45,677 bases of DNA from a virus. The notes below the pieces were generated by a model. That model saw only the letters and a program-made list of their open reading frames with translations. It searched no databases and was not told the origin of the DNA. Shown piece after piece: positions 24,678-40,242 of the stretch (positions are counted from its first letter, which is position 1; each line of letters starts with the position of its first letter). The stretch covers positions 1-45,677 of IMG/VR virus record IMGVR_UViG_3300047459_000072. One strand, 5' to 3'. The position numbers and the translations under genes are program-made.

Positions 24678-24680
24678 ATT

Positions 24681-25493: not shown

Positions 25494-25728
25494 TAGAAAA
25501 GCAGAAGACTTTCCACTAGTAAAACCTGACCTAGGGCCATCACCTAAAACTGATAAAAACAGTGAAGGGTACAAACTTATGATGAAATCATATGAAGGTG
25601 CTATGGTAGAGTACAATGAAAAACTAGAGAAATGGTTAGCAGGAGAAGAAGTCGCAGGGATTGACTACCATGTCGTGCCTGACGGTGAAGGCGGAACTAA
25701 AGAAGAACCTCTAGAAGATTCTGAATAA
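25486..25728 (+). CDS. Hypothetical acidic protein, 80 aa
   Basis: The ATG overlaps the previous stop by 8 bp and has a TAGGAGA site upstream. The protein is Pro-rich at the start, helical in the middle (Y-K-L-M-M-K-S-Y-E-G-A-M-V-E-Y-N-E-K-L) and ends acidic. No family is recognised. Confidence 0.55.
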   Translation: MSDRKAEDFPLVKPDLGPSPKTDKNSEGYKLMMKSYEGAMVEYNEKLEKWLAGEEVAGIDYHVVPDGEGGTKEEPLEDSE

Positions 25729-25734
25729 AACACC

Positions 25735-25763
25735 TTGTTCAAACCATATCTATCTAGTATAAT
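25735..25763 (+). promoter_or_regulatory. Sigma70-type promoter next to the primase start
   Basis: TTGTTC (25735-25740), a 17-bp spacer and TATAAT (25758-25763) precede the ATG at 25772 by 8 bp. Predicted +1 is near 25770, giving a leader of about 2 nt and no ribosome-binding site. Confidence 0.65.
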
Positions 25764-25771
25764 GGCTAGAC

Positions 25772-26797
25772 ATGATATGGTTAGAACGCAAATATTTGTC
25801 TATGGTGGCATCGAGACTCGATGTCTGCAAGTGGAAGAACGATAAGACACTAAATCACAGGTGTCCCTATTGTGGTGATTCACAAAAGAATAAACACAAG
25901 GCAAGGGGATATCACTTTCAGGTAGACCAAAACTTTATATACAAATGTCACAATTGTGGCAAGTCTACTTCGTCCGTCCACTTCTTAAAAGACCACTTTC
26001 CTGATATCCACAGAGAATATCTGAAAGAATATCTACAGGAAAAAGGCGGTAAAGTTAAAGTCAAGAAACAGAAAATGCCAAGTGCAAACGACTTTAAGTT
26101 TAAAAGTAAGAACATTCTAAATACGACTAGGGACGATTTGTCAGCAGTCGCTGTTCGTGCATGGGAAAAGACGGAATCAAGAGAATACCTTCAAGACCGA
26201 CAGTTAGACGACTCTATTATCAGAGAACTATGGTATGTTACTCAAGCACAAAGTCTGTCTTTCTTAAGTAGTAAGTACAGAAATAGAGAATTAGGCAAAG
26301 ACCCTAGAATAGTTTTCCCATTTTATTCAGAGAATGGTGAATTGATTGGTGTAAGTGGCAGGGCAATCAACGACACGCCCTTGAGATACTTAACCATGAG
26401 ATTCGTAGATGACGTACCACTCATCTACAACATCAACAATGTGGACAAGTCAAAGACAATCTATGTCACAGAAGGGCCGATAGATAGTCTATTCCTACCT
26501 AACTCTATAGCAGTTGGCGGTAGTGATTTTAAAAAGATACAAAATCTAAAAGAGAATGCAATAATAATTTATGATAACGAACCACGAAACACTGAGATAG
26601 TTAAAAAGATTGACGAGGTTATTGACCTCGGATTTACCGTATGTATTTGGGGTGATAAAAGAGTCGAAGGACTCAAAGATATTAATGATATGATAATGAA
26701 CGGCATGACACAAAATGAAATCGTGGAAGTTATAAACTCTTGCACTTATTCAGGCCTTTCTGCTAAACTTAAGTTACAGGAGTATAAAAAAACATGA
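25772..26797 (+). CDS. 61: DNA primase (T4 gp61-like)
   Basis: The 341-residue protein parallels T4 gp61 throughout. It has an N-terminal zinc-binding domain (C31-P-Y-C34 ... C59-H-N-C62), A-R-G-Y-H-F, and a TOPRIM core with T-E-G-P-I-D-S-L-F and I-I-Y-D-N-E-P-R-N. A C-terminal segment reads L-K-D-I-N-D-M-I-M-N-G. It makes RNA primers for lagging-strand synthesis and works with the gp41 helicase. It is followed, with a 4-bp overlap, by nrdA, so priming and deoxynucleotide supply share one transcript from the promoter at 25735. Confidence 0.96.
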   Translation: MIWLERKYLSMVASRLDVCKWKNDKTLNHRCPYCGDSQKNKHKARGYHFQVDQNFIYKCHNCGKSTSSVHFLKDHFPDIHREYLKEYLQEKGGKVKVKKQKMPSANDFKFKSKNILNTTRDDLSAVAVRAWEKTESREYLQDRQLDDSIIRELWYVTQAQSLSFLSSKYRNRELGKDPRIVFPFYSENGELIGVSGRAINDTPLRYLTMRFVDDVPLIYNINNVDKSKTIYVTEGPIDSLFLPNSIAVGGSDFKKIQNLKENAIIIYDNEPRNTEIVKKIDEVIDLGFTVCIWGDKRVEGLKDINDMIMNGMTQNEIVEVINSCTYSGLSAKLKLQEYKKT

Positions 26798-29136
26798 CAC
26801 ATGACAATGGAGATATTAAGGTAGTAAAGAGCGATGGTTCACGTGTAGAAATTAATCTAGAAAAAATTCATGTTATGGTTACAGCCGCTTGTAAAAACGT
26901 TACAGGTGTTTCTGAATCATTAGTTGAAATGAATAGTGGTCTTCAATTCTATGACGGAATCACAACCAAGGACATTCAGAGTATCCTTATTAGGTCAGCC
27001 TCAGATTTGATTTCATTACAAAGTCCTAACTATCAGTTTGTAGCGTCTAGACTTTTATTGTTTGCACTACAGAAACAAGTTTTTGGAACTAAATGGAAAG
27101 ACGGTAAAGACATATATCCTAGACTGTATGATATGATTGGAAAGAACATAGAGCAAGGTGTTTACACCAAAGAGATTCTAAAACATTATACAGAAGAAGA
27201 AATCGATACGTGCAATAGTTATATAAGACACCAAAGAGATTTTGATTTTACTTATGCAGGTTTACAACAGATAGTAGACAAGTATCTTGTACAAGATAGA
27301 AGTACAGGTGAACTGTATGAGACACCACAGTTTATGTATATGATGATTGCTATGACATTGTTTCAAAAATACAATGGTCATGGTGAGAAGAACAGGTTAT
27401 GGTATGTAAAGAATTACTATGACGCAATTTCTACATTTAAGATTAATATTCCTACACCTATTATGGCAGGTGTAAGGACACCACTCAAACAATTTGCAAG
27501 TTGTGTATTGGTTGACAGTGACGATTCTCTTGATTCTATTTTCTCAAGTGATATGGCGATTGGAAAATATGTAGCACAACGTGCTGGTATTGGTATCAAC
27601 GCAGGACGTATCAGAGGATTAGGTGCAAAGATTCGTGGTGGTGAAGTACAACACACAGGAGTTATACCATTCCTCAAGAAGTTTGAATCTACAGTTCGTT
27701 GTTGTACACAAAACGGTGTAAGAGGTGGGAGTGCAACAGTACACTTTCCTATCTGGCACCAAGAGATTAACGATATTATTGTTCTCAAGAATAACAAGGG
27801 AACAGAAGACAATAGAGTTAGGAAACTAGACTACTCTATTCAAATGAGTGAACTCTTTTATCAGAGATTCCTCAAAAACGAGGACATTACATTGTTCTCA
27901 CCACACGTTGTAGAAGGTCTATATGACGCATTTGGAACGCCTGAGTTTGACGAATTGTACGAGAAGTATGAACGTGCAACTAGTATTCCAAAGACTAAGG
28001 TAAATGCTAGAGAATTGATAACAGATTTACTAAAAGAAAGAGCAGAGACTGGCAGAATCTATATCATGAATATAGACCACTGCAACACACATAGTGCTTT
28101 CCTTGACAAAGTGAACATGAGTAATCTTTGTCAGGAAATCACTCTACCTACAAAACCTATACAATCTATTGACGATTATAAAGGTGAGATTGCATTGTGT
28201 ATTTTAAGTGCAGTCAACGTAGGTATTGTTAAGTTGGACGAGATAGAACACTTATGTGACCTATCAGTCAGAGCACTTGACGAATTGATTGACTATCAAG
28301 AATACCCTGTGAAAGCCGCTGAGATATCAACAATCAAGAGAAGAAGTCTTGGTATAGGATATATTGGTCTCGCACATTATCTTGCAAAGAACAAAGCACA
28401 ATATGGAAGTGAAGAATCTTTACAGTTAATCCATGAACTAACAGAAGAGTTTCAATATTCACTTATCAAAGCGTCTATTAACGTTGCAAAAGAGAAGGGT
28501 AAGAATGATTGGCACCATAAAACTAAGTATGCGAAGGGCATATTACCCATAGATACGTACAAAAAGGACGTGGACGACCTAGTAACTATAAAGTATAAGA
28601 AAGACTGGGAGGCGCTACGTGGCGAAGTCCTAGAACATGGTATGAGACATTCTACACTTAGTGCACAAATGCCTAGTGAATCGTCTAGTGTTGTATCAAA
28701 TGCGACAAATGGTATTGAACCACCTAGAGACCACTTGTCAGTTAAGAAGAGTAAGAAGGGAACACTTAAACAGGTTGTACCTCAGTATACACAACTCAAG
28801 AACTTCTATACATTGCTATGGGATATGAAAGATAATCTTGGATATATCAAAGTAGTTGCAGTTATGCAAAAGTTCTTTGACCAAGGTATTAGTGGTAACT
28901 GGTCATACAACCCTGAGAACTATGAAAATGGTGAAGTTCCTGTGTCTGTTATGGCAAATGACTTGCTCAATACATATAAATATGGGTGGAAAACTTCTTA
29001 CTACCATAATACTATGGACGGTAAAGAAGAAGACGTTGTGAAAGAAGAATTGCCTTCCGCAGTAGATGACGCAGCTAATGTAATGAGTGGGTATGACCCA
29101 TTCGATGAAGAGGATTGTGACGCTTGTGCCATATAG
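26794..29136 (+). CDS. nrdA: Ribonucleotide reductase class Ia, large subunit
   Basis: The 780-residue protein starts with an ATP-cone (V-V-K-S-D-G-S-R-V-E) and keeps the catalytic residues of class Ia enzymes. These are the active-site cysteine pair (S-C-V-L-V and C-I-L-S-A-V-N), the N-L-C-Q-E radical/acid-base motif, the paired tyrosines of the radical path (S-Y-Y-H-N-T) and a C-terminal redox pair C-D-A-C. It reduces ribonucleoside diphosphates with NrdB, and the phage glutaredoxin downstream could supply electrons. The length matches the family. The gene overlaps both neighbours. Confidence 0.97.
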   Translation: MTHDNGDIKVVKSDGSRVEINLEKIHVMVTAACKNVTGVSESLVEMNSGLQFYDGITTKDIQSILIRSASDLISLQSPNYQFVASRLLLFALQKQVFGTKWKDGKDIYPRLYDMIGKNIEQGVYTKEILKHYTEEEIDTCNSYIRHQRDFDFTYAGLQQIVDKYLVQDRSTGELYETPQFMYMMIAMTLFQKYNGHGEKNRLWYVKNYYDAISTFKINIPTPIMAGVRTPLKQFASCVLVDSDDSLDSIFSSDMAIGKYVAQRAGIGINAGRIRGLGAKIRGGEVQHTGVIPFLKKFESTVRCCTQNGVRGGSATVHFPIWHQEINDIIVLKNNKGTEDNRVRKLDYSIQMSELFYQRFLKNEDITLFSPHVVEGLYDAFGTPEFDELYEKYERATSIPKTKVNARELITDLLKERAETGRIYIMNIDHCNTHSAFLDKVNMSNLCQEITLPTKPIQSIDDYKGEIALCILSAVNVGIVKLDEIEHLCDLSVRALDELIDYQEYPVKAAEISTIKRRSLGIGYIGLAHYLAKNKAQYGSEESLQLIHELTEEFQYSLIKASINVAKEKGKNDWHHKTKYAKGILPIDTYKKDVDDLVTIKYKKDWEALRGEVLEHGMRHSTLSAQMPSESSSVVSNATNGIEPPRDHLSVKKSKKGTLKQVVPQYTQLKNFYTLLWDMKDNLGYIKVVAVMQKFFDQGISGNWSYNPENYENGEVPVSVMANDLLNTYKYGWKTSYYHNTMDGKEEDVVKEELPSAVDDAANVMSGYDPFDEEDCDACAI

Positions 29137-30076
29137 AGTAACATATAAAGACGGCCCGAATTACGGGAAAGACGCACACGGATTTATGAATGACGATACA
29201 GTCAAACTCATAAAAGACCGTTACTTAGTCTTACGTAATGTTATACCAAAAGAAATAACAGATTTTGCATTAGATACATGGAAAACAATTGAACCATGGC
29301 CTGACGCATACGCAGCTGTCTTTGACGAAGAATTAGAACCAATACCAAATAGTCCTGTTTCTTCACACAATACTTCTAGAGGTGGACATACCACACCTAT
29401 GGGAGTTGCAATGCATAGGTGGTTACATAAAGAATTAGATAAAAGACTTGATATAGAGTTGGAACAAACTTATTCTTTCACTAGAAAATATGATAGAGGT
29501 GCATATCTAAGAGCACATTCTGATAGACCCTCATGTGAAATAAGTGCCACTATCTGTTTAGGATATCAATCAGATAATGACAAACCATGGAAAATATGGT
29601 TAGATAACACTAGGAACTGGGTGGATACATCTAGTGACCCTGCAATGAATGAAAACAAAGTCTTTGAACAAACTCAAGGCATTCCTATTAGAAAAAGAAA
29701 GAATGCTATTGATGTAGACTTAGAAGTTGGAGATATCCTCTTGTATCATGGCCCAAATGTGGTACACTGGCGAGATACTTTTATGGGTGACTATTCATAT
29801 CATATGTTTTTGCACTACTATACAAAAGACGCAAGTAAATTGAGTCATTGTGGTCAGTCAGGTGCTGAGTTTCACTATGAAGCAAGTGAATGGTCAAGGG
29901 AAAAGATAGGTGTCTTGAGATATGACGGAAGAGAGAATCCGTACATGCAACAAGACATTGATAGCATGGAACATGAAAAAATGACGAATTGGGTCAAAGG
30001 TTGGGAAGTGACACACAATAAATCATTTTTTGTAAACAATTACGAACACTTAGAATTTACGAAGATAGAAGAATGA
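29105..30076 (+). CDS. 2-oxoglutarate/Fe(II)-dependent oxygenase
   Basis: The gene lies between nrdA and nrdB and overlaps both. The protein has a jelly-roll oxygenase core with the iron-binding H-S-D (L-R-A-H-S-D-R-P) and a distal histidine in N-V-V-H-W-R-D. It is followed by a beta-rich C-terminus, as in prolyl-4-hydroxylase-type enzymes. The substrate could be protein, nucleic acid or a small molecule. The start is uncertain: ATG 29105, GTG 29117 and GTG 29126 all lie in the end of nrdA, and an internal ATG at 29186 begins the conserved part. Confidence 0.8.
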   Translation: MKRIVTLVPYRVTYKDGPNYGKDAHGFMNDDTVKLIKDRYLVLRNVIPKEITDFALDTWKTIEPWPDAYAAVFDEELEPIPNSPVSSHNTSRGGHTTPMGVAMHRWLHKELDKRLDIELEQTYSFTRKYDRGAYLRAHSDRPSCEISATICLGYQSDNDKPWKIWLDNTRNWVDTSSDPAMNENKVFEQTQGIPIRKRKNAIDVDLEVGDILLYHGPNVVHWRDTFMGDYSYHMFLHYYTKDASKLSHCGQSGAEFHYEASEWSREKIGVLRYDGRENPYMQQDIDSMEHEKMTNWVKGWEVTHNKSFFVNNYEHLEFTKIEE

Positions 30077-31170
30077 CAGTATTTAACAGGAACAAAGTAG
30101 ACTACACCAAGGAGAAGATATTCTTTGGTGAAGCCTTAAACACACAACGATTTGACGACTTCAAGTATCCTATATTTGATAAACTGACACAGAAACAATT
30201 AGGATTCTTTTGGAGACCCGAAGAGGTATCTTTACAGAAAGATAGGAACGACTATGCCTCTTTGAATAAATCACAGAAACATATATTCACCTCTAATCTG
30301 AGGTATCAGACTTTGCTAGACTCAGTTCAGGGTAGGGCACCAGCATTATCGTTCTTACCATTCGTGACCCTTCCTGAACTTGAGTCTTGCATTATTACAT
30401 GGGACTTCTTTGAGACTATCCATAGTAGAAGTTATACACATATCATAAAGAATGTATACTCAGACCCAAGTGACGTATTTGACACCATATTAGACGAAGA
30501 AGCAATCATTAAGAGGGCAGATATGGTCACGGAAAAATACGACCATTTCATTGAACTAGGACGTAGGAAGTTATTAGGTCAAAAAGTTGACGACTATGAA
30601 CTATACAAAGCATTATATCTCGCACTTATCAGTGTGAATATATTAGAGGGAATACGCTTCTTTGTATCCTTTGCGTGTTCCTTCGCTTTCGGTGAACTGA
30701 AAGTCATGGAAGGCAGTGCAAAGATACTATCTCTTATTGCAAGAGACGAAGCACAACACCTTGCTGTATCACAACACATACTAAAATGTTATGCAAACCA
30801 TGAGAAAGATAAAATCATGCATAAGGTTATGAAAGATTGTGAGAAAGAAGTTTACTCAATGTATGAGGACGCAGTGAATCAAGAGAAAGAATGGGCAGAG
30901 TTCTTGTTTAAAGAAGGTTCTATGATAGGATTATCTGTACCACTTCTTGGACAATATGTAGAGTACATAGCAAACAAAAGACTTAGAGCAATAGGCCTGA
31001 ATGCAATGTATGATATCTCTAGTGCAAATAATCCATTGCCTTGGACTAAACACTGGTTCAACAGTAGAGGACTACAGAACGCACCACAGGAGACAGAGAT
31101 TGAATCTTATGTCATAGGTGGTATCAAACAAGATATCCAAGAAGATACATTTGAAGGATTTAAACTGTAA
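30073..31170 (+). CDS. nrdB: Ribonucleotide reductase class Ia, small subunit
   Basis: The 365-residue ferritin-like protein keeps the di-iron and radical site of class Ia R2. The first Asp is in Q-T-L-L-D-S, and W-D-F-F-E-T-I-H-S-R-S-Y holds the first Glu and His plus the radical tyrosine. F-F-E/E-G-I-R-F-F and A-R-D-E-A-Q-H complete the second iron site. The C-terminal D-T-F-E-G-F-K-L tail is the R1-binding peptide. It stores the tyrosyl radical that NrdA uses. The start overlaps the preceding oxygenase gene by 4 bp. Confidence 0.97.
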   Translation: MTVFNRNKVDYTKEKIFFGEALNTQRFDDFKYPIFDKLTQKQLGFFWRPEEVSLQKDRNDYASLNKSQKHIFTSNLRYQTLLDSVQGRAPALSFLPFVTLPELESCIITWDFFETIHSRSYTHIIKNVYSDPSDVFDTILDEEAIIKRADMVTEKYDHFIELGRRKLLGQKVDDYELYKALYLALISVNILEGIRFFVSFACSFAFGELKVMEGSAKILSLIARDEAQHLAVSQHILKCYANHEKDKIMHKVMKDCEKEVYSMYEDAVNQEKEWAEFLFKEGSMIGLSVPLLGQYVEYIANKRLRAIGLNAMYDISSANNPLPWTKHWFNSRGLQNAPQETEIESYVIGGIKQDIQEDTFEGFKL

Positions 31171-31185
31171 GATATATTTTATATT

Positions 31186-31746
31186 ATGAAATTAGAAAGT
31201 GATTTATATAAACTGATACCAAATGCTTTACCTATGAACTTAAGGGTTGCAGTGTGGCAGGAATTACTTAAGAAGGACTATCGCCTTGGTTGGAATGATT
31301 ATGACGGAGTTGAAGCACCATTCTCAAAATCATACTATCTTGCTCACGTAGCAAGAAAAGGTGAAAGAGATAGACATGGTAAAACAAAATTTGATTACTT
31401 CGGAGATTTAGGTATACCTGATGAGTTCTGTCAAGAATATCATGATATCATGGGGGATAAGAAACCAACATATTGTTCAGTCAATTTGGTTTATCAAGGA
31501 CAACAGTTTTGGCCTCATACACATAGAAAACAAACTTCTATAGTTTACTATGCAAACCTTGAGTGGCATAATAAATGGGGTGGTGAAACTATAATTTATG
31601 AAAATGACGGAGAGACATTCCACGCCGCTGTACCATACGTGCCAGGAGCTGTACTATGGTTAGGAGAAGGAGTAACTCACGCAATAAGACCACCAAGTAC
31701 AGAAGCTCCAATGTACAGATTTACAATGGGAATATTTTATGACTAG
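31186..31746 (+). CDS. Putative 2OG-Fe(II) oxygenase-like protein with HxH
   Basis: The 186-residue protein has the strand order of a small jelly-roll oxygenase: S-V-N-L-V-Y-Q-G, then F-W-P-H111-T-H113, W-G-G-E-T-I-I-Y, P-G-A-V-L-W-L, V-T-H165-A-I and Y-R178-F-T. The usual HxD/E iron motif is HxH here, so metal binding or activity may differ from classical family members. It heads the chain of overlapping genes that runs to 35131; the next start lies in its last codons. The function is unknown. Confidence 0.65.
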   Translation: MKLESDLYKLIPNALPMNLRVAVWQELLKKDYRLGWNDYDGVEAPFSKSYYLAHVARKGERDRHGKTKFDYFGDLGIPDEFCQEYHDIMGDKKPTYCSVNLVYQGQQFWPHTHRKQTSIVYYANLEWHNKWGGETIIYENDGETFHAAVPYVPGAVLWLGEGVTHAIRPPSTEAPMYRFTMGIFYD

Positions 31747-31993
31747 AATAATTTTTACAACACTGATTACAGTATATCTTGCAGGTTGTGTAAGCACAAT
31801 CGAAACTCTTGACGGATTGTGTTTCAATGAAAAAGACGGTACATATATGTGCGATAAGCCAGAGAGAAAAAGAAAACAACCCGAAGAAGAAATGAAAGAA
31901 TGGATTGATAAGATTGAAGACGATGTCTGTAATGACGATATGAAAACTTGGCATGGTCATTGTGTCGATTCTAAATATAGAAATGTCGCATGA
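31739..31993 (+). CDS. Small lipoprotein, 84 aa
   Basis: The protein has a short signal peptide ending in a lipobox (V-Y-L-A-G-C), so it should be lipidated and exported. The mature part contains four further cysteines (L-C-F-N, Y-M-C-D, D-V-C-N, W-H-G-H-C), suggesting two disulfides or a metal site in the periplasm. It overlaps genes on both sides, immediately upstream of the cytochrome c/oxidase pair. A link to that module is inferred from position only. Confidence 0.75.
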   Translation: MTRIIFTTLITVYLAGCVSTIETLDGLCFNEKDGTYMCDKPERKRKQPEEEMKEWIDKIEDDVCNDDMKTWHGHCVDSKYRNVA

Positions 31994-32142
31994 GATTGAT
32001 ATTTAAATTATTACTGGGTGCAGGGAGTAAAGAAGACTTTAACCCAACACCTTTAAACTTATTTACAACCGCTATCATATTATTGGTGGCATTTTTAGGA
32101 CTTGTTATCGGACTGATATACATAATATTACAAATCATATGA
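31990..32142 (+). CDS. Small membrane protein, 50 aa
   Basis: The ATG overlaps the lipoprotein stop and the TGA overlaps the cytochrome gene start. The last 25 residues form one strong membrane span (A-I-I-L-L-V-A-F-L-G-L-V-I-G-L-I-Y). The plan recalls small subunits of respiratory complexes, but no family is recognised. Confidence 0.65.
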   Translation: MRLIFKLLLGAGSKEDFNPTPLNLFTTAIILLVAFLGLVIGLIYIILQII

Positions 32143-32582
32143 GAGAATTAGGAATGGTATTATTTGGGTGCACTTTGCTTGCACTCTTTTTCGCTACGGT
32201 TATCTATCCCGACTTAGAATATAAAGGTTATTCAAGAAACAGTAATTGTTCAGGTGAATGTTATGAAGAGTATGTAAGAGTCAATGGAACAGTAGTAGAA
32301 CAACTCAGAGCAAAACAAGAACTCGCAAACGCAGACGAGTTCAGTTCAATTAGAAGTTTATGGGCAGGTTGTGCCGCCTGTCATGGTCAAGAAGGACAAG
32401 GTATCGCATCATTCCCTAGACTCGCAGGACAGAGTTCAGATTACATAATAAATAGATTGACTCAGTATAAGAATGGGGAACAAGTTGGTGCTATGTCAGC
32501 CACTATGTGGGGACAGGCAGGAATGTTATCAGAACAAGACATACAAACTCTCGGTAAATTTATAGAAACAGAATTGAAATGA
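32139..32582 (+). CDS. Membrane-anchored class I cytochrome c
   Basis: The 147-residue protein has an N-terminal membrane anchor (about 5-23) and a periplasmic linker with two cysteines (N-C-S-G-E-C). Its cytochrome c domain has the heme-binding motif C78-A-A-C81-H82, followed by G-Q-E-G-Q-G and F-P-R-L-A-G-Q-S-S-D-Y-I. M119 (or M123) is the likely distal heme ligand, and the C-terminal helix reads L-S-E-Q-D-I-Q-T-L. These features match c4/c553-type cytochromes that shuttle electrons between the bc1 complex and oxidases. Heme attachment would need the host maturation system. It overlaps the oxidase gene by 4 bp. Confidence 0.9.
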   Translation: MRELGMVLFGCTLLALFFATVIYPDLEYKGYSRNSNCSGECYEEYVRVNGTVVEQLRAKQELANADEFSSIRSLWAGCAACHGQEGQGIASFPRLAGQSSDYIINRLTQYKNGEQVGAMSATMWGQAGMLSEQDIQTLGKFIETELK

Positions 32583-33145
32583 GAGATATATTTGCAAAAT
32601 CCATGACCAAGTTTTTCCGTTTCATTGCGGATACATTTTTTGCAAATAGATACGGACACAGAGCAGTTGTATTAGAAACAGTTGCAGGAGTGCCAGGCAT
32701 GGTTGCTGGTATGTGGTTACACCTCAAAAGTCTCAGGAAAATGAAGACTGGTTGGGGGCCTCAGATACGAGAAATGTTAGCAGAAGCAGAGAATGAAAGA
32801 ATGCACCTAATGTTTTTCATAGAAATTGCAAATCCAAACTGGTTTGAAAGATACCTAGTTTTGTTTGCACAAATGATTTTTATGTTGTTTTACTTCTTAG
32901 TTTACATAGTGGACTTTAGAACTGCACATAGAATGATTGCATACTTTGAACAAGAAGCAGTCAAATCATACACTGAGTATTTAAGACTGGTAGAGAGTGG
33001 AGAAGTAGAGAATATACCTGCACCACAACTCGCTATCGATTATTATAAAATGAAGAAGAGTGCTAAACTATCTGACTTAATTAAGAAAGTTAGAGCAGAC
33101 GAAGAACACCATTCTAAAATAAACATGGAGTACAGTAACAAATGA
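32579..33145 (+). CDS. aox: Alternative oxidase (di-iron ubiquinol oxidase)
   Basis: The 188-residue protein has the complete AOX di-iron ligand set: E33 (V-L-E-T-V-A-G-V-P-G), E73 and H76 (N-E-R-M-H), E126 (F-E-Q-E-A-V-K-S-Y-T) and E175/H178 (D-E-E-H-H). A hydrophobic stretch at about 91-112 packs in the membrane. It should oxidise ubiquinol and reduce O2 to water without pumping protons. It is shorter than typical bacterial AOX by trimmed termini, but the core is intact. The cyanophage plastoquinol oxidase PTOX is a relative, so a quinol other than ubiquinol is possible. It lies between cytochrome c and glutaredoxin, with 4-bp overlaps. Confidence 0.93.
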   Translation: MRDIFAKSMTKFFRFIADTFFANRYGHRAVVLETVAGVPGMVAGMWLHLKSLRKMKTGWGPQIREMLAEAENERMHLMFFIEIANPNWFERYLVLFAQMIFMLFYFLVYIVDFRTAHRMIAYFEQEAVKSYTEYLRLVESGEVENIPAPQLAIDYYKMKKSAKLSDLIKKVRADEEHHSKINMEYSNK

Positions 33146-33372
33146 TAGAGATATGGGGAAAAACACAGTGTCCATACTGTGACATGGCAAAGAGACTATG
33201 TGAAACTAATGGATATGATTTTATATATAAACAGTTAGGAGAAGACTTTCAGAGAGAAGACGTATTGGAACAATTTCCTGGCGCCAGAACCTTTCCACAA
33301 ATTATAGTTAATGAAGAAAATATCGGTGGATACACTGAACTTGAAGGACTACATAAAGGTGGACAGTTATAA
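33142..33372 (+). CDS. Glutaredoxin
   Basis: The 76-residue protein is a classical dithiol glutaredoxin with the active site C-P-Y-C near the N-terminus, the T-F-P-Q-I cis-proline loop and the G-G-Y-T-E-L glutathione-binding turn. It can reduce NrdA or other thiol enzymes. It resembles the glutaredoxins of marine T4-like phages. Its start overlaps the oxidase gene by 4 bp. Confidence 0.93.
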   Translation: MIEIWGKTQCPYCDMAKRLCETNGYDFIYKQLGEDFQREDVLEQFPGARTFPQIIVNEENIGGYTELEGLHKGGQL

Positions 33373-33652
33373 ATTATATCTTCCTACTGAAAGGGAACAA
33401 GACGTATACTGTGACAGATACAGACATATGCTTGATACCGTAGATAGGGTAGAAAACGAAGTAAGGATTTACATATGCGGTTTAGATTTTACATACAAAG
33501 ATATTGGGGAAACGCCTTTACCATTCGTGACATTGAATGGGAAGGTTAAGTCTTACGAGAATATATGCAAACATTTAGAATTGCCACATTTAATCAACAA
33601 ACCTAATTACCTAGTAAAAGAAGAGGGAACATACAACAGTGAGTTTAATTAA
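33359..33652 (+). CDS. Hypothetical protein, about 97 aa
   Basis: The GTG at 33359 gives a 14-bp overlap with glutaredoxin and lies about 10 bp after an AAGGA sequence. An ATG at 33311 in the same frame would add 16 residues but overlap further. The protein has Y-K-L-Y-L-P-T-E-R-E and V-R-I-Y-I-C-G-L-D-F, suggesting a small alpha/beta fold. The function is unknown. Confidence 0.55.
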   Translation: MDSYKLYLPTEREQDVYCDRYRHMLDTVDRVENEVRIYICGLDFTYKDIGETPLPFVTLNGKVKSYENICKHLELPHLINKPNYLVKEEGTYNSEFN

Positions 33653-33791
33653 ACTTTTTTGTACAGATTGTCAATCAGAATGTGAGATATATTCTGAAAT
33701 GGACGAACACCATTATCCAATCCAGCATTGTCCTTATTGTGGTGCTGAGATTGACGAAGGTCAACTCGAAGAAATAGATGAAGAAGACTGA
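33639..33791 (+). CDS. Small zinc-ribbon protein, 50 aa
   Basis: The GTG start overlaps the preceding stop by 14 bp. The protein has F-C-T-D-C and a second pair C-P-Y-C-G, spaced as in zinc ribbons or rubredoxin-like knuckles, followed by an acidic tail. It would bind one Zn (or Fe). The role is unknown. Confidence 0.6.
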   Translation: MSLIKLFCTDCQSECEIYSEMDEHHYPIQHCPYCGAEIDEGQLEEIDEED

Positions 33792-33942
33792 GCATATAGG
33801 ATTCCCGTTACCGTCAGAAATGTTCCATGACATACCAGTCATAAATATAGATGAGGAATGGGATAAACATTATGCGGCCACAAAACTGCTTGATATCCCA
33901 TTGAAGTGTCCAAAGTGTGGAGAAAAGTTAAGAAATGCCTGA
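33778..33942 (+). CDS. Second small zinc-ribbon-like protein, 54 aa
   Basis: The ATG overlaps the previous gene by 14 bp, and the end overlaps the COQ4 gene by 8 bp. The C-terminus has L-K-C-P-K-C-G-E-K-L, a single zinc knuckle that might complete a site by dimerising or by joining another protein. The function is unknown. Confidence 0.55.
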   Translation: MKKTEHIGFPLPSEMFHDIPVINIDEEWDKHYAATKLLDIPLKCPKCGEKLRNA

Positions 33943-34639
33943 AAAAGTCTACAAAGCCTACGAAATTAATATACCTGCAGGGATATCTGCAATCAAACGT
34001 CTTATAAAAAACAAAGGTGACACACAGGCCTATGTTGAGATAAATGTCGCATTTAACGGTAAGGGATATAAAAAGATAATTGAGGAATGGCAAGAAACTC
34101 CTCAAGGTAAAAGATATCTAAAAGGTGAGAGACTACCATTAAATAAGAAATTTAAGAAAGGTACAGTTGGTGCAGTAAGACAAGAGTTTCTTGGTAACTG
34201 GGATAAAACAAGTGACATAACAAGTTTACATGTACCACCTAATCCAAACATGGCATATGCTTATTGGAATATGGATTTACATGACGTATCACACATAATG
34301 ACAGATTATGGACAGGACGGAATAGGTGAACTTTGTAGAATAGAATTTGAGATAAATCAAGCATACCAAAGAGGATTTAAAATTATCTCATGGTTATTTC
34401 AACTAAAAGTCATGTCCCTCAGTTTCAAAAGATTCCGTAAAGTCAGAAGATATATCAGAGAAGCACAACAACGTGCAAAATTATGTGATGATATGTACAT
34501 GATAAATTGGTTTGATTACTTAGACAAACCATATGACTATGTCAAAAAAGAGGTAGCACAAATACCACCTGTTAAAGTATACAATCCCGAAGACGAATCA
34601 TTCAAAAGATTAAGCAAATGGTTAGGTAGATATTTCTAA
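33935..34639 (+). CDS. coq4: COQ4-like ubiquinone biosynthesis protein
   Basis: The 234-residue protein has the COQ4 hallmark HDxxH-x11-E: H116-D-V-S-H120 followed by E132 in G-Q-D-G-I-G-E. The motif is flanked by the usual helical M-A-Y-A-Y-W-N-M-D-L and E-I-N-Q-A-Y-Q-R-G segments. COQ4 binds a metal through this motif and takes part in ubiquinone head-group maturation. Recent work on the family assigns it the oxidative decarboxylation at ring carbon C1. Length and helix-rich character fit. Only 0.8 kb separates it from the alternative oxidase in the same overlapping gene chain, which supports a shared quinone theme. A purely structural relative cannot be excluded. Confidence 0.82.
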   Translation: MPEKVYKAYEINIPAGISAIKRLIKNKGDTQAYVEINVAFNGKGYKKIIEEWQETPQGKRYLKGERLPLNKKFKKGTVGAVRQEFLGNWDKTSDITSLHVPPNPNMAYAYWNMDLHDVSHIMTDYGQDGIGELCRIEFEINQAYQRGFKIISWLFQLKVMSLSFKRFRKVRRYIREAQQRAKLCDDMYMINWFDYLDKPYDYVKKEVAQIPPVKVYNPEDESFKRLSKWLGRYF

Positions 34640-34818
34640 TGAGATTATTGATATTACAGAAAGAGAAAGCACGTCTTATGCGTGACAGGAGTCCATTCGG
34701 AACTCCTAGGTGGGTCATAGAAGAAATGGTAGACGGAAAGTGGAGAAGTACAAAAGTTTACAGTAAAATATGGTATAAGAAAGAAAGAGTGATTGAGTTA
34801 AATGAGGGTCTACAGTAG
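34639..34818 (+). CDS. Small basic protein, 59 aa
   Basis: The ATG overlaps the COQ4 stop by one base. The product is basic and rich in Arg, Lys and Trp (T-P-R-W-V-I-E-E-M-V-D-G-K-W-R). No family is recognised. The next gene starts inside its last codons. Confidence 0.55.
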   Translation: MRLLILQKEKARLMRDRSPFGTPRWVIEEMVDGKWRSTKVYSKIWYKKERVIELNEGLQ

Positions 34819-35131
34819 ATATAAAGCACTGAAAGAGAGTGCTTGTTACTACGCAAGAGAGTTAGGTATTCAGGATTCTCGGAAGATTCGTGTACATATC
34901 TATCGCCTACCACACCCACACCCAAAACAAGGTTATATTGAGTACCCAATACACGGAAAACTAAGAGATATATCAATATATGTCAAATTAGACGATGAAA
35001 GGGAGATAACCCTTGCACATGAAATGGTGCATGTCCGTCAAGTCCTTGCCAGGCAAGGGATAGACGAGGTTGAAGCAGAGAAAATAGGTCAAAAAATAGC
35101 GGAAAAGCGCTTGACAATGACCCTATTTTAA
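34802..35131 (+). CDS. Small zincin-type metallopeptidase-like protein
   Basis: The 109-residue protein has the zinc metallopeptidase motif H-E-M-V-H (HExxH) in L-A-H-E-M-V-H-V-R-Q. A downstream D-E-V-E-A-E could give the third zinc ligand, as in SprT-like or minimal gluzincin domains. It might process a phage or host protein. Its last codons also contain the TTGACA-like half of the promoter element upstream of the nucleotidase gene. Confidence 0.7.
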   Translation: MRVYSRYKALKESACYYARELGIQDSRKIRVHIYRLPHPHPKQGYIEYPIHGKLRDISIYVKLDDEREITLAHEMVHVRQVLARQGIDEVEAEKIGQKIAEKRLTMTLF

Positions 35132-35145
35132 TGTTAGCCTATACA
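35111..35145 (+). promoter_or_regulatory. Promoter-like element shared with position 45504
   Basis: TTGACAATGACCC followed by GTTAGCC and TATACA occurs here and, with TATAAT, at 45504-45539. The TTGACA-to-TATACA spacing (23 bp) is too long for ordinary sigma70, so either TGACCC acts as -35 or another factor reads it. TATACA ends 1 bp before the first ATG and 4 bp before the second ATG of the nucleotidase gene. Confidence 0.45.
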
Positions 35146-35146
35146 C

Positions 35147-35701
35147 ATGATGAAAAAAGAAGTGAAATTAGAAACAATCTTTATTGACATGGACGGAGTC
35201 CTAGTTGACTTCATTAAGGGTGTATCTGAAATGATAGGAAAACCCCTTACTGCTGACGCTAAAGGTCACACTGAATATGACGAAAGAAAACAAGAATTAA
35301 CTGACAAAAGACTGTTCAGAAACTTACCACCAATGGTTGATTACCATGAACTAATCGGATATGTAAAACATACTGGTGTTCCTTGGGAAATCTTGACAGC
35401 CGCTGGTGCGATAAACAGAAGAACAGTTGTGTATGATAAGCAAGAGTGGATTAAACAGTGGGTTGACCCATTTGTTGTCACTACTTGTACTTACAGTGGT
35501 AGTCAGAAAGCTGCCTTTGCTATTGAAGGTGCAGTCTTGATTGACGACAGACAAAAGAACATTGACGCTTGGGTTGAAGCGGGTGGTATCGGTATAGTTC
35601 ACACTAGTGCCGCTAACACTATCGAACAACTTAAAGCATTAAGAAATGGTGGTAATATCCTTGACTTTCAAAAGGAAGTTGCGGTTACTAACCACGTTTG
35701 A
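35147..35701 (+). CDS. 5'(3')-deoxyribonucleotidase (HAD family, NT5C-like)
   Basis: The 184-residue protein opens with the HAD nucleophile motif D-M-D-G-V-L-V-D-F. It then has an I-L-T-A-A-G motif II strand, a lysine-bearing Q-K-A-A-F segment and L-I-D-D-R motif IV, the pattern of NT5C deoxyribonucleotidases. It should dephosphorylate (d)NMPs and help balance nucleotide pools alongside ThyX and ribonucleotide reductase. Two ATGs (35147, 35150) are possible starts, both next to the promoter-like element. Confidence 0.85.
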   Translation: MMKKEVKLETIFIDMDGVLVDFIKGVSEMIGKPLTADAKGHTEYDERKQELTDKRLFRNLPPMVDYHELIGYVKHTGVPWEILTAAGAINRRTVVYDKQEWIKQWVDPFVVTTCTYSGSQKAAFAIEGAVLIDDRQKNIDAWVEAGGIGIVHTSAANTIEQLKALRNGGNILDFQKEVAVTNHV

Positions 35702-35928
35702 TTGGTGTGAGTGGTGTGTGGAACCTTCATTGCGAAGATGACTATAAGCACAAGAAGCAACAGAAAACCGCCCGTTGTACTCACCAATTTTGAGGGGTCA
35801 ATATGCTTAGGGGTATTGAATAGTGGTTGAATCCACACTCTCTTGGACGGGTCTTGAGCATGTGCGCCCAGTTATACGTCCGTAGGAAAAAATACAATAA
35901 CTGAAATTGCGAGACGATTTTTCGGTGT
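35702..35928 (+). ncRNA. Candidate structured RNA between nucleotidase and iscU
   Basis: These roughly 230 bp carry no gene but have many complementary segments. An outer helix pairs 35701-35712 with 35779-35788 (10 bp with a 2-nt bulge), and hairpins pair 35798-35803 with 35814-35819 and 35823-35826 with 35833-35836. GGACG (35845-35849) can pair with CGTCC (35877-35881), while CAGTTAT (35869-35875) lies in that loop and pairs with ATAACTG (35897-35903), forming an H-type pseudoknot. A terminator follows directly. I could not match it to tmRNA, RNase P RNA, 6S RNA or a group I intron. It could be an RNA in its own right or a leader for iscU. Confidence 0.5.
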
Positions 35929-35965
35929 GGGAGTTTAGTCTTTAAAGAAACTCCCCTATTTTTTT
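35929..35965 (+). terminator. Rho-independent terminator
   Basis: A perfect 8-bp inverted repeat GGGAGTTT (35929-35936) / AAACTCCC (35948-35955) with an 11-nt loop is followed by CTA and a run of T at 35959-35965. This is a textbook intrinsic terminator for the nucleotidase/structured-RNA transcript. It isolates iscU, which then has its own promoter. Confidence 0.85.
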
Positions 35966-35966
35966 A

Positions 35967-35974
35967 TATAAATA
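35967..35974 (+). promoter_or_regulatory. T4-type late promoter TATAAATA next to iscU start
   Basis: A perfect TATAAATA lies directly after the terminator T-run. The ATG at 35979 is 5 bp after its last base, so the expected +1 falls within one base of the start codon and the iscU mRNA would be leaderless. Confidence 0.55.
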
Positions 35975-35978
35975 AAAC

Positions 35979-36416
35979 ATGGCATATAGTAAAAAGGTAG
36001 TAGACAGATTTGAAGACGTATTAGCTAATCCTGAGAAACATGCAGTCGGTAGGTTCGACCCTAAAGACCCTAATGTTGCAACAGGACTAGTAGGTGCACC
36101 AGCATGTGGTGACGTTATGAAACTTGACCTAAAAATGAATGGGGATATTATAGAAGATGTCAAATTCAAAACTTATGGATGCGGTTCTGCTATCGCATCA
36201 TCAACCATGTTTGTTGAAATGCTCAAAGGTAGAACAATTGAACAGGCAAAACAAATTAAAGATAAAGATATTGCAGAGGCTCTTGAGTTGCCTGCCATCA
36301 AACTCCATTGTTCTGTCCTTGCTGAGGAAGGAATCCATAAAGCAATAGAAAACTGGGAAGAAAAACTTGCCCATAGGAAACATAATTATGCAAACAGTGA
36401 CGAAGGACTTTCCTAA
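35979..36416 (+). CDS. iscU: Iron-sulfur cluster scaffold IscU
   Basis: The 145-residue protein keeps all residues of the IscU scaffold: C43 with D45 (G-A-P-A-C-G-D), C68 (Y-G-C-G-S-A) and H110-C111 (L-H-C-S-V-L-A). It also has L-P-A-I-K at 104-108, the counterpart of the LPPVK peptide recognised by the HscA chaperone. It should assemble [2Fe-2S] clusters with a host cysteine desulfurase. This could serve the phage radical SAM enzyme or rescue host Fe-S metabolism. It sits alone behind a terminator and a late promoter, and overlaps the next oxygenase gene by 29 bp. Confidence 0.95.
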   Translation: MAYSKKVVDRFEDVLANPEKHAVGRFDPKDPNVATGLVGAPACGDVMKLDLKMNGDIIEDVKFKTYGCGSAIASSTMFVEMLKGRTIEQAKQIKDKDIAEALELPAIKLHCSVLAEEGIHKAIENWEEKLAHRKHNYANSDEGLS

Positions 36417-37017
36417 CGGGGAATCCGTAGAACTTAACAATAATTTTATAATGCACTGCAGAGGATTCTTTGACGACAGAGAATGCGATTCATTAATTGA
36501 ATATTGGCATTGTGTAAAAGATAATGGTCAGATTAATGTACGTGGACAATATGACACAAACAACCAGTTAGAAAAATCAGATACTTCAACTCCGTCTTAT
36601 GCTAAACTACCACCCACCGAAGAAGCTAGATTCTCAGACCGCAATTCTGAATTAGTAAGAAAGATTCAAGACGACATATTACCAATATATACAGAACATT
36701 ACTTTCAAGAACTAAGAGACCTTATAAAAGTGATTGAGCCTCCGAAGGTACAACGAACAGAACCAGGCGAAGGATATCATTTATGGCATTGTGAGACAAT
36801 GGGTAGAGAAACACGTGATAGAGTATTAGCATATATGTTATATCTTAATGACGTTGACGAGGGTGGTGAAACAGAATTCTTATATCAACATTGTAGATAC
36901 AAACCAAAGAAGGGTGACTTCTTGGTATGGCCAGGCTACTTTACACACGTCCACAGAGGTAATCCACCTATCTCAGGGCATAAATATATAACCACTGGTT
37001 GGATTGAGTGGTCATAG
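36388..37017 (+). CDS. 2OG-Fe(II) oxygenase, prolyl-4-hydroxylase type
   Basis: The ATG at 36388 is chosen over an upstream TTG inside iscU. The C-terminal double-stranded beta-helix has W-H-C-E (HxE iron motif), Y-L-N-D-V-D-E-G-G-E-T-E-F, G-D-F-L-V-W-P, T-H-V-H-R-G (distal His) and G-H-K-Y-I (2OG-binding Lys). This is the classic P4H arrangement. The substrate is unknown. Confidence 0.87.
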   Translation: MQTVTKDFPNGESVELNNNFIMHCRGFFDDRECDSLIEYWHCVKDNGQINVRGQYDTNNQLEKSDTSTPSYAKLPPTEEARFSDRNSELVRKIQDDILPIYTEHYFQELRDLIKVIEPPKVQRTEPGEGYHLWHCETMGRETRDRVLAYMLYLNDVDEGGETEFLYQHCRYKPKKGDFLVWPGYFTHVHRGNPPISGHKYITTGWIEWS

Positions 37018-37026
37018 GAGAAACAT

Positions 37027-37173
37027 ATGGAACATTTACATAAATTTCTAGATTGGCATGAACAACAAGTATACAAATATATGGACTTCTTTAACATTAG
37101 TGAATACCACGCAATGTGGATATCATTTGCAAAAGGATTCTTATTGGCATTATTATTAGTATGGATTTTTTAA
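37027..37173 (+). CDS. Small membrane protein, 48 aa
   Basis: An AGGAGAAAC site precedes the ATG. The protein has a hydrophilic N-terminus rich in His and Tyr and a C-terminal membrane span (A-K-G-F-L-L-A-L-L-L-V-W-I-F). It overlaps the next gene by 13 bp. The function is unknown. Confidence 0.65.
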   Translation: MEHLHKFLDWHEQQVYKYMDFFNISEYHAMWISFAKGFLLALLLVWIF

Positions 37174-37406
37174 AACGACAATTTTGGAACCTATGGTCAT
37201 GGATAAAATCATTATTCATGACACGTTACATTGTGTCTGTATCGTATAACGCCGAATGGGGTGACAAAGACGATAGAGTTTACACTGGTGTAAGAAAGAT
37301 AATCACGAAGAAAGAGAAATTTCTATCTTTCATTGATTCGGATAAGAGACCAGTAGAGATTCGTGGAGCTGCTGGACTCAATTATAAAATAGAGGTAGAG
37401 GACTAA
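37161..37406 (+). CDS. Conserved marine phage protein, 81 aa
   Basis: The ATG at 37161 lies inside the end of the previous gene and gives the best-conserved form. An amphipathic Trp-rich N-terminus is followed by Y-I-V-S-V-S-Y-N-A-E-W-G-D-K-D and F-L-S-F-I-D-S-D-K-R-P-V-E-I-R ending G-L-N-Y-K-I-E-V. Proteins of this form are conserved in marine T4-like phages without known function. One-base overlap with the spanin gene that follows. Confidence 0.65.
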   Translation: MDFLKRQFWNLWSWIKSLFMTRYIVSVSYNAEWGDKDDRVYTGVRKIITKKEKFLSFIDSDKRPVEIRGAAGLNYKIEVED

Positions 37407-37789
37407 TGCAGAATTTATTAATTGGTCTGTTGGTTGCACTAGGATTGTTCAGTTATTATATGTACAATCAGAATCAGACCTTGACTGCTAACAATATCAA
37501 GTTAGAAAGTGCAGTAGAAGAACAGAAACAGGCTATGGACGCCTTGAGAGAGTCATATGAGAGACAAGGTAAATCTCTTATGAACATGAGTCGTAGAAAT
37601 GCGGAAATAGAGGCAGAGAAAGCTGAATACTTAGCAATCTTTGCTAGACATAATCTAGATATGCTTGCATTGAAAAAGCCAGGGTTGATAACCAACAGGT
37701 TTAACAATGGAAGTGAAAAAGTAATGGAGAGTATGGAAGATGATACAGAAGAACTTTATAAGCTTACTGTTCCTGACAATAGCGATTAG
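37406..37789 (+). CDS. Inner-membrane spanin (Rz-like)
   Basis: The 127-residue protein has one N-terminal membrane anchor (L-L-I-G-L-L-V-A-L-G-L-F) and a long periplasmic coiled coil (N-N-I-K-L-E-S-A-V-E-E-Q-K-Q-A-M), the plan of an i-spanin. The gene for a lipoprotein starts inside its last 50 bp in another frame, the typical overlapped Rz/Rz1 arrangement. Together they would fuse inner and outer membranes at lysis, after the lysozyme encoded at 5782 has acted. The assignment rests on topology and gene overlap. Confidence 0.7.
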   Translation: MQNLLIGLLVALGLFSYYMYNQNQTLTANNIKLESAVEEQKQAMDALRESYERQGKSLMNMSRRNAEIEAEKAEYLAIFARHNLDMLALKKPGLITNRFNNGSEKVMESMEDDTEELYKLTVPDNSD

Positions 37790-38288
37790 TGGTTGTTCAC
37801 TAATACCAACGAAACAGATAGAAATATCTTCCAAACCAATTCAGATTGATATTATGCAACCTGATTTACCACGTCCTGTTAATTTGACAGCACCTCAATG
37901 GTGGGTAGTATCAACAGCTAAGATAACAAATCCATGTAGGAAGACTATATCATTTGACCCTAAGAAGTTTGATGATAAAGGTGTAGAACAACTCAAGAGA
38001 CCTAAGTCATGTGATAAGTCAGAGACAGAAAATCCTGATTGGCCTGACGGTTATACATACTTAGATAGATTCCTAGATGAAATGAAGGAACAAAATAATG
38101 GTGAAGTATTGTTTGTTGCAACTACTATCGGTGATTACGAAATCATGGCAGAAGATATGCAAGAAATCAAAAGATATATTAATCAATTAGGTGAAGTAAT
38201 AATTTATTATCGTAATGTAACTATGCCCAACGGAGACAAAGGAGTGGGTGTAGGTGTGAAAAAGAATGAAAAGTCAAAGACAGACTAG
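37740..38288 (+). CDS. Outer-membrane lipoprotein spanin (Rz1-like)
   Basis: The 182-residue protein has a signal peptide with lipobox (A-I-S-G-C), then a Pro-rich mature start and a mixed alpha/beta domain. Its start lies within the i-spanin gene. As an outer-membrane lipoprotein it would contact the i-spanin coiled coil. It is larger than Rz1 of lambda, as is common in marine T4-like phages. The end overlaps the following oxygenase gene by 23 bp. Confidence 0.68.
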   Translation: MIQKNFISLLFLTIAISGCSLIPTKQIEISSKPIQIDIMQPDLPRPVNLTAPQWWVVSTAKITNPCRKTISFDPKKFDDKGVEQLKRPKSCDKSETENPDWPDGYTYLDRFLDEMKEQNNGEVLFVATTIGDYEIMAEDMQEIKRYINQLGEVIIYYRNVTMPNGDKGVGVGVKKNEKSKTD

Positions 38289-39021
38289 AGATTACAGACC
38301 ATTAGACGTTAGAAAGACGGAGTTATTCACAACTCCGTTTTATACTATGAAGTTCATAGCAGACTACGAAGAGATAGTTAGAGATGTTCGTAGAGCAATC
38401 AAAGAAGTTGAACTAGAATTTGGTGACGATAAATCAAGAAACTACACTACCTATTTCAATAGGGAACTCCACGACAGATTCATTACAGATAAAGAGTGGT
38501 GCAAGAATCTAGCAACCACACTCAAAGATACCTATGTCGATTTAATGCATAAAGAATTCTTGTTCAGTCCAAGAGAATTACAACTAACAAGGGATAAAGT
38601 GCATTTAATGTTGTGGGTAAATAGATACACAGAAGACCATGTCCACACTGCACACAATCATAAGGGTTCTAAGATATCAGGGACATTCTATGTAAAAACA
38701 GGTCAACCATGTGCACCCATTGTATTTGAGAGTCCTACAGAATATGCAAACATGTTATTTGCTACAAAAGATTTACAGATAGAAGAAGGCCAAATGAGTC
38801 ATTTCGGTACACCTGCAGTGCAGAAGGAAATGCACTATCAACCAAACAATGGTGACATAGCAATGTGGCCTGCTTATTTGTATCACCACGTACCAAGACA
38901 AGACGACCAAAAAGAACGAATATCAATCAGTTTTAATCTAGACCACCATGACAATTTAGGTTATGGATACTCAGACGAAGTGCTAGATAGACTAGACTAC
39001 GGATTTTTACACCATGAGTAG
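38266..39021 (+). CDS. 2OG-Fe(II) oxygenase (2OG-FeII_Oxy_5 type)
   Basis: The 251-residue protein contains H-T-A-H-N-H-K-G-S-K-I-S-G-T-F-Y-V (HxH region then the conserved SG-x-FYV), a G-D-I-A-M-W-P strand, Y-H-H-V-P-R and E-R-I-S-I-S-F-N-L-D. This matches the putative 2OG/Fe(II) family common in marine phages and bacteria. The substrate is unknown. It overlaps both neighbours. Confidence 0.82.
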   Translation: MKSQRQTRDYRPLDVRKTELFTTPFYTMKFIADYEEIVRDVRRAIKEVELEFGDDKSRNYTTYFNRELHDRFITDKEWCKNLATTLKDTYVDLMHKEFLFSPRELQLTRDKVHLMLWVNRYTEDHVHTAHNHKGSKISGTFYVKTGQPCAPIVFESPTEYANMLFATKDLQIEEGQMSHFGTPAVQKEMHYQPNNGDIAMWPAYLYHHVPRQDDQKERISISFNLDHHDNLGYGYSDEVLDRLDYGFLHHE

Positions 39022-39918: not shown

Positions 39919-40242
39919 ATGTTCTCAGAAAACCACTATCGCCCTCTACCAAAAGAGGTTATAATTAAACAATCAGAGATAGACGGATATGGTATTTTTG
40001 CAAAAGAAGATATATCAAAAGATACAGAACTGGGTATTACTCACGTATGGGCAATGGGTAAGTGGATTAGAACACCACTTGGTGGTTTTATTAATCATGC
40101 TAATAATCCTAACGCCAAAGGCGTAATAAAGAATGCAGACGGAACTGATTACAGAATGTTAACTGTCATAAGAAATATCAAAGCAGGGGAAGAGATAACA
40201 TTCTTCTATACACTGAATGAGTACCAAGGAGTGTTTGCATGA
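39919..40242 (+). CDS. SET-domain protein (putative lysine methyltransferase)
   Basis: The ATG at 39919 is chosen because it lies 1 bp after the previous stop. The 107-residue protein is a minimal SET domain with G-Y-G-I-F-A-K-E-D-I (strand 1), G-G-F-I-N59-H60-A-N-N-P-N-A (NHxxxPN motif binding S-adenosylmethionine) and I-K-A-G-E-E-I-T-F-F-Y (catalytic tyrosine region). It could methylate a host or phage protein lysine. The domain is smaller than eukaryotic SET proteins but near the size of bacterial and viral minimal versions. It overlaps the next gene by 4 bp. Confidence 0.85.
   Translation: MFSENHYRPLPKEVIIKQSEIDGYGIFAKEDISKDTELGITHVWAMGKWIRTPLGGFINHANNPNAKGVIKNADGTDYRMLTVIRNIKAGEEITFFYTLNEYQGVFA

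Follow-up and report, generated by a model that had tools for sequence, protein, structure and literature searches.

The question raised by this locus is what a phage would gain from carrying a terminal oxidase and a cytochrome c inside a string of nucleotide-metabolism genes. The window considered here is the whole of IMG/VR record IMGVR_UViG_3300047459_000072 (45.7 kb; 45,677 nt), with the loci and contigs compared to it labelled L### or G###, and the element in question is a gene cassette on the + strand at 31739-34639. A sequence-only reading had described this stretch as a chain of overlapping genes forming one module of cytochrome c, alternative oxidase (AOX) and a COQ4-like protein; the open reading frames (ORFs) were recovered at these coordinates, and the first five genes (lipoprotein, 50-aa protein, cytochrome c, AOX and glutaredoxin) are joined by four successive 4-base ATGA overlaps. 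The preferred reading, given a probability of about 0.6, sees here a set of auxiliary respiratory genes of a T4-like phage, in which AOX would pass electrons from ubiquinol to O2, cytochrome c would deliver electrons to a host oxidase, and both would serve deoxynucleoside triphosphate (dNTP) synthesis.

The identity of the oxidase is certain. The gene at 32579..33145 (+) matches PF01786 with 221.9 bits against a cut-off of 22.7, covering profile positions 19-216 of 216, and no substitution occurs at E33, E73, H76, E124, E126, E175 or H178 across 57 distinct sequences, the window included. These residues, found in the motifs E33, E73xxH76, E124/E126 and E175xxH178, cover the six di-iron ligands that had been claimed from the letters; their roles were assigned through alignment to trypanosome AOX and, in part, from general knowledge of the family. 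Trypanosome AOX was also the PDB sequence match (E 1e-35), and an AlphaFold model built on a 40-sequence alignment (pLDDT 87.3) superimposed on it with TM-scores of 0.88-0.90 by query length and 38-40% identity, while a fold search with this model returned 14 PDB matches at E <= 0.001, all of them AOX. The phage protein shares the fold, the six di-iron ligands and the quinol-oxidase family with trypanosome AOX (3vv9/9kun), from which it differs in its shorter chain, its location on a phage and its nearest relatives, the AOX of SAR86/SAR92-type bacteria; it is predicted to be active as a quinol oxidase.

Cyanophage PTOX (phrog_4235) is likewise a phage-borne di-iron quinol oxidase of the same superfamily, with an electron-sink role proposed for it, but the window AOX matches phrog_4235 only at E 0.003 and shares 22% identity with the PTOX of phage S-N03 in a structure match. 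A tblastn search of 50,697 phage records at 1e-5 matched a single record, Phage C48C1 (58%, annotated as hypothetical), and no cyanophage PTOX. By sequence comparison, the phage enzyme is of the ubiquinol AOX type and not of the cyanophage PTOX type, and its closest cellular kin are gammaproteobacterial AOX. The best 80 of 97 cellular relatives share 67-79% identity with it and come mostly from SAR86, Porticoccaceae/SAR92, Halieaceae and other marine gammaproteobacteria, a few being classified elsewhere. On the viral side, one scan of contigs returned 207 stretches with AOX relatives, and the best 80 were carried forward. A quick tree mixes phage with bacterial sequences and does not show a single viral clade; it has 7 changes, at least 2 of them forced by starred branches, among many open forks. 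One contig filed as Saprospirales (L198) combines phage-like small genes with a phage-type AOX and is perhaps a mis-binned phage.

The second component, at 32139..32582 (+), is a class I cytochrome c with a single haem, preceded by an N-terminal hydrophobic anchor (PF00034, 34.6 bits; cut-off 21.3), in agreement with the membrane-anchored CxxCH cytochrome c originally described. Residues C78, C81, H82 and M123, together with the C37/C41 pair, are invariant in 66/66 distinct phage sequences (at least 120 aa, E < 1e-15), and M123 is the candidate axial haem ligand. Relatives were found in 376 stretches of viral contigs in one scan and in 487 in a profile scan, and none in annotated phage records at 1e-5. 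Identity with cytochrome c4 was rejected: the window protein has one CxxCH only, whereas the SAR86 c4-like protein has two haem domains. The nearest host-type cytochromes found are short, with open frames of 134-166 aa, and occur in 17 out of a set of 61 genomes related to the SAR86 genome AG-917-O19, a 231-aa frame adding an 18th; in AG-917-O19 the gene sits downstream of cytochrome c4 and dsbA. These proteins resemble the phage cytochrome in their single haem and N-terminal hydrophobic segment, share 43-49% identity with it over the haem domain across the 17 genomes, and carry the upstream Cys pair in the one examined; they differ in that, in the genome examined, the gene is placed beside cytochrome c4/dsbA rather than AOX or ribonucleotide reductase (RNR). 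AOX occurs in 2 of the 17 genomes with the host-type cytochrome, compared with 21 of the 61 relatives overall, and COX1, of the haem-copper oxidase, in 58 of 61. The ORF immediately upstream of coxA in another SAR86 genome gives a cytochrome c match (E 2.3e-4), and a caa3-type oxidase is therefore suggested. SAR86/SAR92-type gammaproteobacteria are the likely donors of the AOX and cytochrome c genes, an origin that the sequence-only reading had missed. A ferritin-like gene adjoins cytochrome c in phage L156 (6457-6897) and AOX in L167 (834-1274), a contig classified as bacterial.

AOX and cytochrome c are recurrently linked, with reshuffling, in other marine phages. Among 56 AOX loci counted as distinct by their last 150 residues, cytochrome c occurs anywhere in the locus in 27, within 1.6 kb in 21 and overlapping in 7, with cytochrome c preceding AOX in four of the overlapping loci and following it in three; before deduplication, 33 of 80 AOX loci contained cytochrome c. 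At the level of whole contigs (47 of the 80 AOX loci were submitted), cytochrome c was present on 23 of the 47 AOX contigs searched. The two genes lie at most 1.6 kb apart on 14 of these 23, against about 3.5 expected from a crude uniform model, a rough comparison because the contigs are related to one another. Both profile support and synteny in other marine viral contigs, on which the original description had been made to depend, were therefore found for this pair. The contig L096, from a close relative of the window phage (nrdB 96% and glutaredoxin 97% identical), aligns across the cassette except for two gaps, which coincide with the genes for AOX and the 50-aa protein; cytochrome c is present in both phages, and AOX is absent from the whole 31.9-kb L096 contig. 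Gain or loss here thus respected gene boundaries, and in this single comparison it affected the two genes jointly.

Gain and loss of AOX and the 50-aa gene as gene-exact units also favors a different account, in which AOX and cytochrome c are independent auxiliary genes in one variable site after nrdB, an insertion hot spot implying no joint task. Cytochrome c is mostly tied to nrdB and glutaredoxin: nrdB lies within 1.5 kb upstream in 29 of 66 distinct loci and glutaredoxin directly 3' in 27, compared with AOX nearby in 8, so part of the linkage may reflect a shared insertion site. Several further observations weigh against a respiratory cassette in the same way. AOX stands alone or far from cytochrome c in many loci (several have the two separated by 3.7 to 44 kb), it is present in only 15 of the 80 kept cytochrome c loci, and in 18 of the 29 distinct AOX loci without cytochrome c the flanking sequence extends 2 kb or more to each side. 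AOX was also found on only 4 of 46 whole cytochrome c or COQ4 contigs, a count that understates the link because 11 of the 15 AOX-holding cytochrome c loci were left out of that list. Since the loci are often separate, neither gene needs the other, though the contigs are fragments; additionally, AOX normally bypasses cytochrome c, so a shared task is not obvious. An insertion hot spot fits less well with the overlap of the two genes in both orders, which extends to loci that show no nrdB match in their 7 to 11 kb (L011, L026 and L073; L012, a longer copy of the L011 phage, has only a 22% nrdB match, farther on). The ATGA coupling of the genes, and the occurrence of the same small membrane proteins with AOX in some phages and with cytochrome c in others, likewise argue against it. 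Independent insertion is considered unlikely, and the auxiliary respiratory cassette is retained as the preferred reading.

The small membrane proteins extend this pattern. By homology, the 50-aa single-transmembrane protein (31990..32142, +; hydropathy maximum 3.19) is part of the recurrent cassette, which had previously been missed. In L015, where nrdB is only 52% identical, a homologue (phmmer E 1e-4) immediately precedes the run of cytochrome c, AOX and glutaredoxin, and others precede ferredoxin and AOX in L049 and L059, for which a profile built from the window and L015 copies, L059 left out, gives E 2e-7 and 3e-6; a single-query search missed the L049 and L059 copies. A tie of this protein to AOX alone was rejected, as a match also occurs in L156, a cytochrome c locus without AOX, and so was a DUF2970 identity (E 0.015), as two homologues do not match that family. 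A W-rich single-transmembrane family lies within approximately 300 bases of cytochrome c in 21 of the 66 distinct cytochrome c loci and, in 11 of the 56 distinct AOX loci, no more than 2.6 kb from AOX; a two-member profile still recovers its L073, L030, L049 and L059 copies. A 135-aa two-transmembrane family is located at most 1.6 kb from AOX in 10 of the 56 and also occurs in the SAR86 loci L183 and L199. It is these W-rich and two-transmembrane families that accompany AOX in some phages and cytochrome c in others. In two SAR86 genomes, the four stretches containing the cytochrome oxidase operon gave no match to any of the three small families. In L059, part of a 250-kb contig on which gp23 is also matched, cytochrome c, an EF-hand protein, pseudoazurin, the W-rich protein, the 50-aa protein, ferredoxin and AOX follow one another (L059 4041-6594). 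A pseudoazurin-like gene also stands beside AOX in 10 of 80 bacterial AOX loci, with PF00127 confirmed in one bacterial and one phage member. A broader interpretation of these arrangements would be a mobile, recombining electron-transport island (AOX, cytochrome c, at least three small membrane families and optional pseudoazurin or ferredoxin) in marine T4-like phages of heterotrophs, forming a phage-specified respiratory complex that re-plumbs the host membrane; this is regarded as decidedly doubtful.

Matches to PHROGs for DNA polymerase, a UvsX-like recombinase, a DnaB-like helicase, primase and RNR identify the window as a phage contig. The T4 capsid gene gp23 is not within the window itself and lies on G001, an 80.7-kb sister contig whose cassette genes are 100% identical to those of the window; because of these replication genes and the gp23 of G001, the phage is assigned as T4-like. 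The host is probably an aerobic, ubiquinone-using marine bacterium, such as a SAR86- or SAR92-like gammaproteobacterium. The affinities of the capsid protein count against this part of the preferred reading, the nearest relatives of the G001 gp23 being those of Methylophilales phage Melnitz (67.5%) and of the Pelagibacter phages HTVC008M (65%) and Mosig (64%). A gp23 relative with 63-71% identity was found in 4 of 203 genomes from the order of a SAR86 genome (one match being a 47-residue fragment), which gives a weak hint of the host; none of the cassette genes occurred in the contigs examined, with 40,000 of 41,906 bases covered for one. The window also contains tRNA-Gly (3937-4010) and tRNA-Arg (45000-45076), as well as TATAAATA words at 28975 and 35967, with no other on the + strand within 24000-38000; these words resemble the T4 late promoter.

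A role in dNTP synthesis is suggested because the cassette lies in one gene string with nrdA, nrdB and glutaredoxin, a string that may be co-transcribed. Upstream of the cassette, the order is nrdA, a 2-oxoglutarate (2OG)-oxygenase-like gene, nrdB for the RNR beta subunit (30073..31170, +; phrog_86) and a second 2OG-Fe(II) oxygenase-like gene (31186..31746, +; PF13640 25.9 bits, just under the cut-off of 27) between nrdB and the cassette. Downstream of AOX, the glutaredoxin claimed in the sequence-only reading (33142..33372, +; CPYC; phrog_22) was borne out by PF00462 (45.9 bits; cut-off 22.9). In the proposed mechanism, AOX would bind one face of the membrane and move electrons from ubiquinol to O2 without proton pumping, keeping complex I, succinate dehydrogenase and the quinone-linked dihydroorotate dehydrogenase of pyrimidine synthesis turning over despite respiratory control, a proton motive force driven by light or the decay of host oxidases. 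The proposed link between AOX and nucleotide synthesis draws on gene context and established biochemistry. Back-pressure from proteorhodopsin in SAR86 is a possible further reason for an AOX, the SAR86 cluster being described as proteorhodopsin-containing in PMC3474794. The anchored cytochrome c would face the periplasm and add to the pool of carriers that links bc1 to the host haem-copper oxidase; in this way the phage would supply both respiratory branches, with the small membrane proteins probably serving as accessory or assembly partners.

The oxidase could instead act mainly as a safety valve for redox balance and reactive oxygen species, or as a low-copper, low-haem oxidase substitute during host shut-down, rather than in support of nucleotide synthesis. 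Such a role fits established AOX physiology, and pseudoazurin and ferredoxin accompany AOX in L059. PTOX is also described as a safety valve in cyanobacteria in PMC5082946. The recurrent neighbors, however, are RNR and glutaredoxin, and a haem protein travels with AOX, which argues against this role as the main one; it is held as a tentative alternative, somewhat on the unlikely side.

The remaining member of the proposed module is COQ4, at 33935..34639 (+). The HDxxH-x11-E motif is present as claimed, and PF05019 is reached with 24.0 bits against a cut-off of 22.9 (+1.1), compared with 33.5 bits (+10.6) for the L087 homologue and 17.5, below the cut-off, for that of L096. The motif is kept in two other full-length phage homologues and in the Coq4 of L278, L279 and L280, and pairwise BLASTP against the Coq4 of a PS1-clade marine genome gave 1e-13 and 26% identity with the metal motif aligned. 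Against the PDB, which includes the Coq4 structure 3msq, the best match reached only E 0.77, and the AlphaFold model, though helical, was too poor for a fold search (pLDDT 44.7). By its profile score, motif and BLASTP match, the window protein is a genuine, if marginal and diverged, member of the Coq4 family.

In PMC11495197, human COQ4 is reported to act in C1 oxidative decarboxylation during coenzyme Q synthesis, and the presence of a family member in the same gene string is in line with the module first proposed, in which COQ4 would raise the ubiquinone pool that feeds AOX. Only part of that module recurs, however: AOX and cytochrome c are found together repeatedly, whereas COQ4 turned up in three phage types of the viral contigs, only one of which, the window phage, also has AOX. 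The second, the close relative L096, has cytochrome c without AOX; the third has neither, AOX not being found on its 29-kb contig nor cytochrome c within its 12.6-kb locus. COQ4 is therefore placed outside the recurrent core, and substrate supply by COQ4 is speculative. The gene is 55% identical to its L096 counterpart, against 97% for glutaredoxin in the same comparison. Coq4 was found in 0 of 61 relatives of the SAR86 genome, though in 3 of 8 other marine genomes with AOX, one of them Halieaceae; it was also found in 0 of 229 drawn Gammaproteobacteria, in a search without a positive control. A COQ4-fed oxidase is judged highly improbable, and a role of this protein in ubiquinone synthesis is putative.

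The first gene of the chain, at 31739..31993 (+), had been called a lipoprotein; its LAGC lipobox is visible, but the LPAM_1 site scores 17.6 bits, short of the cut-off of 20. Homologues lie directly 5' of cytochrome c in L092 and L096 and approximately 1.4 kb past the AOX start in L043, L046 and L050. Between glutaredoxin and COQ4 lies a 113-aa protein of no family (33311..33652, +), whose start is uncertain and overlaps glutaredoxin, followed by two small genes previously read as zinc ribbons. One is zinc-ribbon-like, with two CxxC pairs (33639..33791, +), the other is a 54-aa protein with a single CxxC (33778..33942, +), and both fall below Pfam cut-offs. At 29087-30076, a PHROG label of ferrochelatase, which would have supplied haem, was rejected, as no Pfam family was found there; by eye this gene is probably a 2OG-Fe(II) oxygenase and the label misleading. 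Several 2OG-Fe(II) oxygenase genes occur in the window, at 36367-37017, 38266-39021 and 40239-40766 in addition to the sub-threshold gene at 31186-31746. A NifU-N/IscU-type Fe-S scaffold gene lies at 35979-36416 (132 bits), with homologues in the AOX loci L033, L043, L046 and L050.

Virus-encoded terminal oxidases are already in print: cydAB of a bd oxidase (PMC12043954), cbb3 oxidase reads (PMC3474794), PTOX-type oxidases of cyanophages and prasinoviruses together with a prasinovirus AOX (PMC12584671), and PTOX in estuarine viruses in a 2026 survey (PMC13079714), alongside electron-transport genes in ocean viromes (PMC4053976). As far as these texts describe them, the other reported viral oxidases resemble the window gene in being virus-encoded, but are bd or haem-copper enzymes or genes labelled or placed as PTOX; the PTOX label in surveys might conceal AOX-type genes. 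In the open-access library searched, subscription papers, preprints and supplements being outside its scope, neither AOX nor AOX with cytochrome c was found for phages of heterotrophs.

To our knowledge, most cases of phages controlling the electron transport of their hosts concern cyanophages and photosynthesis. If phages bring an uncoupled oxidase and a cytochrome c into non-photosynthetic ocean bacteria, such control would reach ordinary aerobic respiration as well; one scan each has already found 207 AOX and 487 cytochrome c stretches in viral contigs. Additionally, the cassette provides testable partners for three membrane protein families of which no scanned member reaches a Pfam cut-off. 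If the oxidase is active, infected cells would gain less ATP from the carbon they respire, a point of relevance to oxygen use and carbon flux in the course of infection. Overall, the findings suggest that marine viruses of this kind alter the respiration of the non-photosynthetic bacteria they infect.

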